Assembly: GCF_035474595.1 (NCBI RefSeq)
Contig: NZ_DATIND010000157.1
Span: forward strand, 1 to 52,221
Direction of reading: 5' to 3'
DNA: 52,221 nt
Source of the DNA: Longimicrobium sp.
GTDB lineage: Bacteria; Gemmatimonadota; Gemmatimonadetes; Longimicrobiales; Longimicrobiaceae
In this document: one piece after another, positions 3,423 through 16,861 of the stretch
Position numbering within the stretch: the stretch's first letter is position 1
How the letters are laid out: each line of letters begins with the position of its first letter
Translations under genes and position numbers: made by a program
Notes under the pieces: generated by a model
Told to the model about the DNA's origin: nothing
The model's input: the letters and a program-made list of their open reading frames with translations, nothing else
Database searches by the model: none

Positions 3423-4535
3423 ATGGAGAAGAAGACGGTCCTCGTCGCCATGTCGGGCGGCGTGGACAGCTCGGTGGCGGCGGCGCTGCTCGTGGAGCAG
3501 GGGCACACCGTGATCGGCGTGACCATGAAGACGTTCTGCTACCAGGACGCGGAGGCCGAGCTCACCGGCCCCACGCGCTCCTGCTGCGGGCTGGACGGCA
3601 TCATGGACGCGCGGCAGGTGGCCGACCGCCTGGGGATCGCGCACTACGTGTTCGACGTGGAGCGCGAGTTCACCCGCGACGTCATCGACGACTTCGTCCA
3701 GGAGTACGCCGCCGGGCGCACCCCCAACCCGTGCGTGCGCTGCAACGGCAACACCAAGTTCCGCGACCTGCTGCGCCGCGGCCGCATGCTGGGCTGCGAC
3801 GCCATCGCCACCGGCCATTACGCGCGGATGGGGATCGATGAGGCCGGGCGCCCCCTGCTGCTGCGCGGCGTGGACGCCGACAAGGACCAGAGCTACTTCC
3901 TCTGGGCGCTCCCGCCGGAGATCCTGCCGCAGCTGATGTTCCCGCTCGGCGAGCTCACCAAGCCGCGCGTGCGCGAGATCGCCCGCGATCTCGGTCTCGT
4001 CACCGCCGACAAGCCGGAGAGCATGGAGATCTGCTTCGTCCCCGACGGCAACTATCCGCGCTTCCTGCAGAAGCGGCTGGGCGCCGGACACGCCGCGCTG
4101 GCTCCGGGCGCGATGGTGACGACGGCGGGCGAGGTGGTCGGCGAGCACGACGGCTACGCGCGCTACACCGTGGGCCAGCGCCGCGGCCTGGGCGGCGGGC
4201 GCCCGCTCCCGCTCTACGTCATCGGCACCCGCCCCGGGCGCCGCGAGGTGGTGGTGGGCACGATGGAGGAGCTGCATCGCCCCGGCGTCACCATCGGCGA
4301 GCTGAACTGGCTCGCACCGCCGCCGGCGGTGGGCGACGCCGTGCAGGTGCAGATCCGCCACCGCGCGAAGGCGGTGGACGCCACGGTCGCGTCGGTCGAT
4401 GAAGATGCGGTCACGCTCCGTTTCGCCACGCCGCAGCGCGCCGTCTCCCCCGGCCAGAGCGCGGTGATGTTCGCCGGCGACGTGGTGCTGGGCGGCGGCC
4501 GCATCGCCGGCGGCGATCCCGCCGCAGGCGAGTGA
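3423..4535 (+). CDS. mnmA: tRNA-specific 2-thiouridylase MnmA
   Basis: ATP-dependent enzyme of 370 residues that thiolates U34 in tRNAs for Lys, Glu and Gln (the s2 part of mnm5s2U). The N-terminal PP-loop is SGGVDSS (residues 11-17). The two catalytic cysteines are Cys104 in NPCVRCN and Cys204 in EICFVPDGNY, and the central GHYAR and KDQSYFLW blocks are typical. Length fits the family (~360). The start ATG sits directly after ACTGGAG, so the ribosome site is close. The neighbouring cysteine desulfurase is a likely sulfur source. A strong hairpin ends the unit. Confidence 0.96.
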   Translation: MEKKTVLVAMSGGVDSSVAAALLVEQGHTVIGVTMKTFCYQDAEAELTGPTRSCCGLDGIMDARQVADRLGIAHYVFDVEREFTRDVIDDFVQEYAAGRTPNPCVRCNGNTKFRDLLRRGRMLGCDAIATGHYARMGIDEAGRPLLLRGVDADKDQSYFLWALPPEILPQLMFPLGELTKPRVREIARDLGLVTADKPESMEICFVPDGNYPRFLQKRLGAGHAALAPGAMVTTAGEVVGEHDGYARYTVGQRRGLGGGRPLPLYVIGTRPGRREVVVGTMEELHRPGVTIGELNWLAPPPAVGDAVQVQIRHRAKAVDATVASVDEDAVTLRFATPQRAVSPGQSAVMFAGDVVLGGGRIAGGDPAAGE

Positions 4536-15765: not shown

Positions 15766-16341
15766 TCAGGATTCGCCGCGTCCCGCGCCCCACGTGCGGC
15801 GGAGCGCGGCGATGCCGTAGGCGAGGCGCGACTTCACGGTGCCGAGGGGGATCTCCAGCGCCTCCGCGATCTCCGGCTGCGTGAGGCCGTGGAGATATCG
15901 CATCCGGAGCACCGACCGCGCGCCCGGCGGAAGCGCGTCGAGCCTGCGCGGCAGCTCGGCGACCAGTTCGGAATCTACGGCGGGCTCGTCAGCGGGCGGC
16001 GCGGGGAGATCGGCCCATTCGTCGAGCGGCTGCGTGCGCGACGCGCGCGAGCGCCGCGCCGCGCGCACCGCCTCGCGCGTGGCGATGCGGTACGCCCAGG
16101 CGCGCACCCAGCGATGGTCCCGCACCGTGCCCAGCCGCCGGCAGACGAGGAGCAGCGTCTCCTGCAGCACGTCCGCGGCATCGTCCGCGTCGCCGACGAT
16201 GCCGCGGATGTGCTCGTGCAGCGGCGGCTCCAGCTCGCGGAGCAGGGCTTCGAGCGCCGTCCGGTCGCCCAGCTGCGCGCGTGCGGCGAGCTCGGCCAGC
16301 CGGAGCCCGCCGGCCGCGGATGGGCCGTTTCCCTCAGACAG
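15766..16341 (-). CDS. ECF-type RNA polymerase sigma factor, probable CTG start
   Basis: Sigma-70 family ECF factor. Region 2 is readable from ARAQLGDRTALEALLREL through GDADDAADVLQETLLLVCRR to VRAWAYRIATREAVRAAR. Region 4 is LPPGARSVLRMRYLHGLTQP and EIAEALEIPLGTVKSRL. With the GTG at 16170 the protein would lack half of region 2. The only in-frame initiator upstream that gives a full region 2 is CTG at 16341, with a strong GGAGGGAAGG eight bases before it and an in-frame TAG just upstream. The full product is 191 residues. It overlaps the preceding membrane-protein gene by 8 bases, so the two are probably coupled. Confidence 0.85.
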   Translation of the reverse strand: MSEGNGPSAAGGLRLAELAARAQLGDRTALEALLRELEPPLHEHIRGIVGDADDAADVLQETLLLVCRRLGTVRDHRWVRAWAYRIATREAVRAARRSRASRTQPLDEWADLPAPPADEPAVDSELVAELPRRLDALPPGARSVLRMRYLHGLTQPEIAEALEIPLGTVKSRLAYGIAALRRTWGAGRGES

Positions 16342-16621
16342 GGCGCCTTCCCTCCAGCGCGGCCACTACCCGGGCGCCGACGCGCGACACGTGGGCGCCG
16401 AGCGCGACCAGCCCCAGCGCCACGATGGTGTAGCCGAGCACCGCGAACAGGAAGAGCAGCACCTGCGTCTCGTTCTTCCAGTCCACCTTCAGCAGGGCGA
16501 TCACCATCAGCAGCCCCTCCACCGCCGCGGCGGCGAGGATGGCCAGGCGCACCATGCGCGCGTGCCGGTCCATCCGGTCCAGCACGCCCGCCACGATCCC
16601 GTCGCGATCCGTGTTCGTCAT
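16334..16621 (-). CDS. two-helix membrane protein coupled to ECF sigma
   Basis: 95 residues. A soluble N-terminus (MTNTDRDGIVAGVLDRMDRH) precedes two transmembrane helices, LAILAAAAVEGLLMVIALL and VLLFLFAVLGYTIVALGLVA. No zinc-binding anti-sigma motif (HxxxCxxC) is present, so a classical ZAS anti-sigma is not supported. Position and overlap with the sigma gene still make it a candidate membrane regulator or sensor. ATG 16621 has GGAGACTGGAG upstream. It is the second gene of a three-gene unit. Confidence 0.72.
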   Translation of the reverse strand: MTNTDRDGIVAGVLDRMDRHARMVRLAILAAAAVEGLLMVIALLKVDWKNETQVLLFLFAVLGYTIVALGLVALGAHVSRVGARVVAALEGRRPV

Positions 16622-16661
16622 CTCCAGTCTCCGTTTGCGGTTGCGGGAAGCGGCGGACGGG

Positions 16662-16769
16662 TCAGCGGTGCCAGAGCACGGCCGTGATCGCCGCGGCTTC
16701 GACGATGGCGTAGACCCACACGGCGATCTCGGTCGCCGACATCCTGCGGCGCGGGCGCGGGGCGGGCAT
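16662..16769 (-). CDS. 35-residue single-pass membrane peptide
   Basis: Very small gene: a basic N-terminus (MPAPRPRRRMSATEI) followed by one hydrophobic helix, AVWVYAIVEAAAITAVLW. It is supported by a near-ideal Shine-Dalgarno (GGAGGACCAC then ATG) and by its place 40 bases upstream of the two-helix membrane protein and ECF sigma genes on the same strand. Function unknown; it could be the first product of the sigma operon. Confidence 0.6.
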   Translation of the reverse strand: MPAPRPRRRMSATEIAVWVYAIVEAAAITAVLWHR

Positions 16770-16861
16770 GTGGTCCTCCAGTGTCAGAGTTGCGATCGGA
16801 AGGAATCGCCTTCCACTGGATGAGAGGCAGGCCGTCCGCCATCCGTTCGGTCGGGCGCGAG

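Follow-up and report, generated by a model that had tools for sequence, protein, structure and literature searches.

The window, which is the whole 52,221-nucleotide stretch analysed, has on its minus strand, between positions 15766 and 16849, a compact operon that comprises, from 5' to 3', a promoter-like site, a gene for a 35-residue peptide, a gene for a 95-residue membrane protein and a gene for an ECF sigma factor. The putative ECF-type autoregulatory promoter (16819-16849, minus strand) has the form CGAAC-N18-CTCTCATC, and its CGAAC starts 80 nt 5' of the ATG of the peptide gene. The peptide, MPAPRPRRRMSATEIAVWVYAIVEAAAITAVLWHR, is a single-helix membrane peptide encoded from ATG 16769 to TGA 16662 (16662-16769, minus strand), and its invariant residue Glu24 lies at mid-helix. 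The two-helix membrane protein, which is encoded from ATG 16621 to TGA 16334 (16334-16621, minus strand), probably has both termini inside, carries an invariant Glu35 in helix 1 and is proposed to be a tether or anti-sigma protein. The sigma gene (15766-16341, minus strand) encodes 191 residues, with Sigma70_r2 and Sigma70_r4 domains, given initiation at CTG 16341-16339. The original observation, an ECF sigma gene with a putative CTG start together with two small membrane proteins, is confirmed in the sequence, and its interpretation is partly supported. Downstream of sigma lies a DnaX-like gene which, as judged by eye, probably starts at TTG 15436-15434 (minus strand) after an AGG-rich site, where the longest-ORF rule would choose GTG 15583 instead.

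The sigma protein matches Sigma70_r4 at 53 bits (Pfam) and TIGR02937 at 79.9 bits (cut-off 42.9), and the solved ECF sigmas SigH, SigW, SigE and SigL match it as well. It has regions 2 and 4, both complete when translation starts at CTG 16341, a length of about 190 residues and all scores over cut-off, as an ECF (group 4) sigma-70 factor does.

The peptide, the two-helix protein and the ECF sigma occur together in eight genomes of the class, which are that of the window and seven others. A search with the two-helix protein among 117 related genomes matches five, own genome included, and in the four others sigma matches with 46-69% identity adjoin the two-helix gene. With profile A1, built from those five, 11 of the 395 phylum genomes give a match at E <= 0.01; seven of these matches are strong (E <= 2.9e-20) and four weak. 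The strong matches are the four known genomes and three new ones from another family (G229, G297 and G291). The weak ones (G338, G241, G320 and G041; E 0.0015-0.008) were set aside, being absent at E <= 0.001 from the class search, whose sample may have lacked some of these four genomes; among them only G338 has a sigma relative (locus L149), which is not adjacent to the match. The 8-row profile A5 matches 9 of 394 genomes of the class at E <= 0.001, i.e. the eight and G412. Around the G412 relative (locus L220), the 7.8 kb retrieved contain no sigma relative, the peptide is lacking, and the gene directly before it is a small one resembling a cupin (by eye); association with a sigma is thus not obligatory for the two-helix family. 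The G412 gene lies at about 3773-4060 of the reverse complement of L220, has the helix 1 glutamate (FEA) and is followed by a large gene resembling an outer-membrane receptor (by eye). The module is absent from 43 genomes of other lineages (43 of 66 contig loci, a set with no positive control), and the class-restricted distribution is thus only what the sampled genomes show.

The eight operon sigmas group together in a tree of 55 sigmas, as a single clade with support 100/99 in which genomes of families f1 and f5 are intermixed. The tree comprises the eight, the loci of suitable length of 32 from the genome searches (L021, one of the 32, was left out as it has no match to sigma) and at most 18 chosen of the 66 contig loci. 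Pairwise distances of sigma and two-helix proteins correlate with r 0.88 (Mantel p 0.0002; partial r 0.88 given taxonomy), those of sigma and peptide with 0.76 and those of two-helix protein and peptide with 0.65, whereas sigma distance is hardly related to taxonomy (r 0.09, p 0.31), which argues that the three genes travelled as one block, irrespective of the species. The membrane genes precede sigma in seven of the eight operons; G008 instead has sigma first, followed by the two-helix gene and the peptide gene, with 4-base overlaps. The sigma and two-helix genes overlap in four of the eight operons, G008 among them, as read from coordinates. The two-helix membrane protein noted earlier upstream of sigma is therefore a real, co-inherited protein of eight genomes.

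L013 and L016, the sigmas nearest to those of the module, join them weakly in the tree (93/41). Their downstream neighbours, of 108 and 121 residues, overlap sigma, contain two hydrophobic helices and lack an HxxxCxxC motif; homology of the module two-helix protein with them was considered and is unsupported (hhalign E 0.096, probability 0.6). These neighbours lie at L013 1537-1863 and L016 2070-2435, and only they give a match, sub-threshold, to PLDc_N, a domain of YxlD/YxlE. Both sigmas follow a gene resembling a peptidase or hydrolase (by eye). In the wider branch, the L036 sigma has directly after it an overlapping 170-residue ORF with several hydrophobic stretches (by eye), which likewise is no classical anti-sigma.

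The AlphaFold2 single-sequence model of the two-helix protein is a hairpin with helices at 3-44 and 51-90 (mean pLDDT 86.8), and these long helices may reach about 20 residues into the cytoplasm. Two-helix proteins have 4-7 Lys/Arg before helix 1, 1-2 in the loop and 3-4 after helix 2, which suggests that both ends of the hairpin are in the cytoplasm. Glu35 of helix 1 is invariant in all eight proteins (alignment A5). No curated Pfam or NCBIfam family reaches its cut-off on the two-helix protein, and no anti-sigma family matches any of the eight. With two helices, no cysteine and no match to DUF1109, the window protein differs from NrsF, which has six helices and a conserved pair of cysteines. 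A comparison of profile A5 with solved chains gives a single meaningless match at E 0.98 and, at E <= 1, neither CnrY nor NepR, class II anti-sigmas whose two short helices embrace the sigma. The absence of a zinc anti-sigma, stated in the earlier note, holds: no separate anti-sigma gene adjoins sigma, and the HxxxCxxC motif of class I anti-sigmas (ASDI/ZAS) is found in neither membrane protein of the window.

The peptide helix resembles helix 1 of its two-helix neighbour and has the same mid-membrane glutamate. The hhalign comparison of the peptide core with helix 1 gives a score of 24.6 (E 1.1e-4, probability 56%), while permuted peptide columns, well-filled ones only, reach 12.7 at most (0 of 150 reach 24.6). 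Independently, the peptide profile gives an in-frame match (E 0.01) to helix 1 of the two-helix protein from G001. One invariant glutamate lies near mid-helix in 8/8 peptides and in 8/8 helices 1. The N-terminus of the peptide is positive in most members (weakly for G229 and G291, balanced in G008), which suggests the same membrane direction as that of helix 1. This likeness, the common glutamate, the conserved promoter and the occurrence well outside the genus go beyond the earlier note.

A CGAAC-N18/19-CTC element is present 5' of the first gene in all eight operons, 37-134 nt before the first start codon. When the 150-nt stretch upstream is shuffled 1000 times with dinucleotides preserved, 2-37 shuffles per locus contain the element. 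The consensus of ECF promoters has AAC in the -35 element, and CGAAC-N18/19-CTC is, by its sequence, a putative autoregulatory promoter of that type. The sole match of the strict pattern CGAACN{17,19}CTCTCWWC anywhere in the own genome is the one at this operon. The relaxed pattern CGAACN{18,19}CTCTC has 33 matches in the own genome (G000), where the reversed control has 13, and 30 in G005, where the control has 9. The ORFs downstream of 31 of the 33 G000 matches and 28 of the 30 G005 matches were compared, the operon site of each genome, one further G000 match in the window and one G005 match being omitted, and no convincing promoter-like target beyond the operon is common to both genomes in this comparison. 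The sole strong shared pair, L170/L196, was rejected, as its pattern apparently lies inside homologous coding sequence and not in a promoter. An interspersed repeat, with near-copies of CGAACCCACTCTCGCACTCTCGCACTCTC at G000:C152 2748, 26561 and 50507, C63 9035 and C65 46404, inflates pattern counts in the own genome. The promoters of G008 (L112 6546) and G001 (L111 5078) are near-identical over about 25 bases despite differing gene order, and promoter and genes look as if they had been rearranged as blocks.

The module belongs with the membrane-partnered ECF sigmas, several of which can be compared with it. In Bacillus subtilis, the ECF sigma SigY is encoded in an operon with several small membrane proteins, YxlC, YxlD and YxlE. 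The module is like that system by description; no family of that name matched the two-helix proteins, and the SigY model, which is among the NCBIfam matches to the window sigma, scores 73.7 bits, far under its cut-off of 194. Class I anti-sigmas of the RseA/RsiW type are encoded next to an ECF sigma and hold it at the membrane, as is proposed for the module, but the membrane proteins of the module have no HxxxCxxC or anti-sigma domain. Published ECF systems include anti-sigmas of classes I, II and III (PMC8103513), and about 79% of the Gemmatimonadetes ECF sigmas are described as associated with a class I anti-sigma (PMC7406223). Within that setting, the module departs from the rule in a conserved way: the proposed holder is very small, and the peptide falls below the length that most annotation picks up.

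Among systems with other kinds of partner, sigma-F of Caulobacter crescentus likewise adjoins a membrane protein, NrsF (DUF1109), a negative regulator and putative anti-sigma. NrsF is described as having six helices, a conserved pair of cysteines and almost no cytoplasmic domain, its N-terminal segment being of only 25 residues (PMC3511200); the two-helix protein of the window, by contrast, is cysteine-free. In B. subtilis, the autoregulated sigma-M is restrained by two membrane proteins of its operon, YhdL and YhdK, which form one anti-sigma complex (PMC6827917). This parallel with the module is by description. YhdL, the major anti-sigma, directly binds sigma-M (PMC6827917); the module proteins have no recognisable anti-sigma domain. 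CnrY of Cupriavidus metallidurans (class II) is a small anti-sigma that wraps its sigma, CnrH, by helices and has no class I domain (PMC7406223, PMC8103513); the module proteins have no sequence match to solved chains of that kind, and their predicted free cytoplasmic helices are of only about 20 residues each. The three-gene module is described in no article found in the open-licence PMC literature, searched by title and abstract start, and it suggests a kind of membrane-held sigma control that none of the articles examined shows.

The most economical reading against the published systems would be a small membrane holder, a helix partner and an autoregulatory promoter loop, and we lean, with only a little more confidence than doubt, towards an ECF sigma that regulates its own operon and is kept at the membrane by the two-helix protein, whose helix partner would be the peptide. 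Control of sigma by the small membrane proteins, which the earlier note had raised, is what this reading would imply. The two-helix protein would be a hairpin with both ends cytoplasmic and helices extending about 20 residues past the membrane, and these short stalks would hold sigma at the membrane, so that the protein would act as a small polytopic anti-sigma lacking a zinc domain. The peptide may pair with helix 1, or replace it, through a glutamate-containing face, and would thereby set the tightness of the hold. A membrane or envelope signal would alter the helix packing and release sigma, which would transcribe at least its own operon, replenish the membrane proteins and close the loop. 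The overlapping genes would couple the synthesis of sigma to that of its holder, and the combination of an inefficient CTG with a strong ribosome site could keep sigma below the level of the holder.

This membrane-holder reading is supported by the presence of the three genes together in eight genomes, the correlation of sigma and two-helix distances (r 0.88), the promoter in 8/8 operons and the sigma clade (100/99). The likeness of peptide and helix 1, the invariant glutamate, the Lys/Arg pattern and the gene overlaps in 4/8 operons also speak for it, short gene overlaps being described as enriched among genes of heteromeric complexes (PMC10666635), and the L013/L016 sigmas likewise adjoin a two-helix protein that has no zinc motif. 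NrsF and YhdL/YhdK serve as precedents. Against it stand the G412 relative that has no sigma, the first position of sigma in G008, the flat codon test of the peptide, the hhalign probability of 56%, the lack of a shared target beyond the operon and the weak L013/L016 node (93/41), and family and solved-chain searches give no sequence link of the module membrane proteins to any known anti-sigma domain. If it is true, the system is compact, and contacts between helices could by themselves suffice to gate a sigma factor. A more specific version is possible, though we hold it only tentatively, in which the peptide is a free-standing copy of helix 1 of a minimal two-helix anti-sigma and acts within the membrane as its partner or competitor, and the paired glutamates form a switch, responding to protonation, lipid or voltage, that gates the hold on sigma. 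That version, if true, would mean sigma control by intramembrane helix swapping, with neither an anti-sigma domain nor proteolysis.

The main rival to the membrane-holder reading takes the membrane proteins as the product of sigma, which would be otherwise controlled and would mainly switch on two small proteins that protect or modify the membrane. We regard this as rather doubtful, though several findings fit it: the single match of the strict promoter pattern in the own genome lies 5' of this operon, the comparison of G000 and G005 gives no other common target, G412 has the two-helix protein and no sigma, and the membrane genes come before sigma in 7/8 operons. It fits less well with the divergence in step of sigma and the two-helix protein, as binding partners often show, with the overlaps of their genes and with the two-helix neighbour that the related L013/L016 sigmas also retain, and the neighbourhoods examined share no other regulator throughout.

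A separate matter is where the sigma gene begins. Its frame opens after an in-frame TAG (16368-16366), and the first ATG, GTG or TTG thereafter is GTG 16170 (16168-16170, minus strand), the expected choice of a standard gene caller, which would give 134 residues with region 2 cut off, as predicted in the earlier note; any caller restricted to ATG, GTG and TTG would fall into this annotation trap. The earlier note also held that region 2 is complete only from CTG 16341, and Sigma70_r2 indeed scores 39.4 bits from this codon versus 18.8 from GTG 16170 (cut-off 24 bits). Its strong ribosome site and overlap are likewise present: GGAGG (16355-16351) precedes the CTG (16339-16341, minus strand) by a 9-nt spacer, and the CTG-initiated gene overlaps the preceding 95-residue gene by 8 bases. 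The starts of the orthologous sigmas were assigned by hand, as the ATG or GTG best fitting the operon layout. At these positions ATG is found in G001 and G008 and GTG in G005, G020, G229, G297 and G291, CTG being seen in the window only. Thus an upstream start in the region of CTG 16341 is borne out in all seven orthologues, and the ATG looked for by the earlier note in two of seven, with GTG in five and CTG in none. A conserved RAQ lies 12-21 residues after the start in the seven orthologues and 20 after CTG 16341, while the next in-frame CTG is 6 residues before RAQ, outside this range. Since 7/7 orthologous sigmas have ATG or GTG 12-21 residues before RAQ and 0/7 begin at GTG 16170, the latter is not the start, and the full-length start lies upstream of it. 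Initiation where G005 has its GTGA overlap was also considered, but the corresponding DNA position is out of frame in the window.

CTG 16341 is the predicted sigma start, and the strong ribosome site fits an inefficient start made usable. The gene overlap there fits coupled translation, which is described as requiring overlaps or very short intergenic gaps (PMC10666635). As CTG occurs in one of eight operons and ATG or GTG in the other seven, it is a peculiarity of this genome, or a base error, and not the mechanism of the system. That the CTG is an assembly base error or a strain variant, with a true ATG, GTG or TTG at the same place, is improbable: the sequence comes from a 163-contig assembly and 7/7 orthologues have ATG or GTG, but deep assemblies seldom carry single-base errors, and a strong, well-spaced GGAGG stands precisely at this codon, as expected to offset a weak start. 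Such an error, if true, would leave the three-gene module unaltered. It is highly improbable that this sigma copy is a fresh pseudogene through loss of its start codon, or that the 134-residue short form alone is made. The CTG is the sole start other than ATG or GTG among the eight operons, as either would have it, yet the frame is intact across 191 codons, and in the short form region 2 is incomplete and scores under the Pfam cut-off. Moreover, pN/pS versus G005 is 0.31 between RAQ and GTG 16170 (residues 21-57) and 0.41 beyond GTG 16170, so constraint runs through the disputed N-terminal stretch, as far as these sequence comparisons go.

The single-helix 35-residue peptide with a good ribosome site (GGAGG 16779-16775, 5 nt from ATG 16769) has also proved real and co-inherited. 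It is kept in all eight operons with 31-39 residues, one of them with a GTG start, and only E24-A25 are invariant in alignment A6. No Pfam or NCBIfam family matches it. Its own profile finds its own locus as the best match in 5/5 genomes (E 9.8e-20 to 2.6e-8), these being the same five genomes from which the profile was built. The sense frame of the 19-residue membrane core is stop-free in 8/8 genomes and has the highest similarity per column of the six frames (1.89; the others 0.99-1.44), which 0 of 2000 residue-order shuffles within each peptide sequence reach. The codon test of the core, in which substitutions are saturated, gives pN/pS 0.94 in frame versus 0.93 and 1.25 out of frame. There is very little chance that the frame is untranslated and conserved as leader RNA or by accident, as this flat codon test and the varying start and length might suggest, against the open frame with its membrane core and VEA/IEA motif in 8/8 genomes, the frame and shuffle comparisons, the ribosome site before the ATG and the retention of the peptide with the operon in G008, where the gene order has changed.
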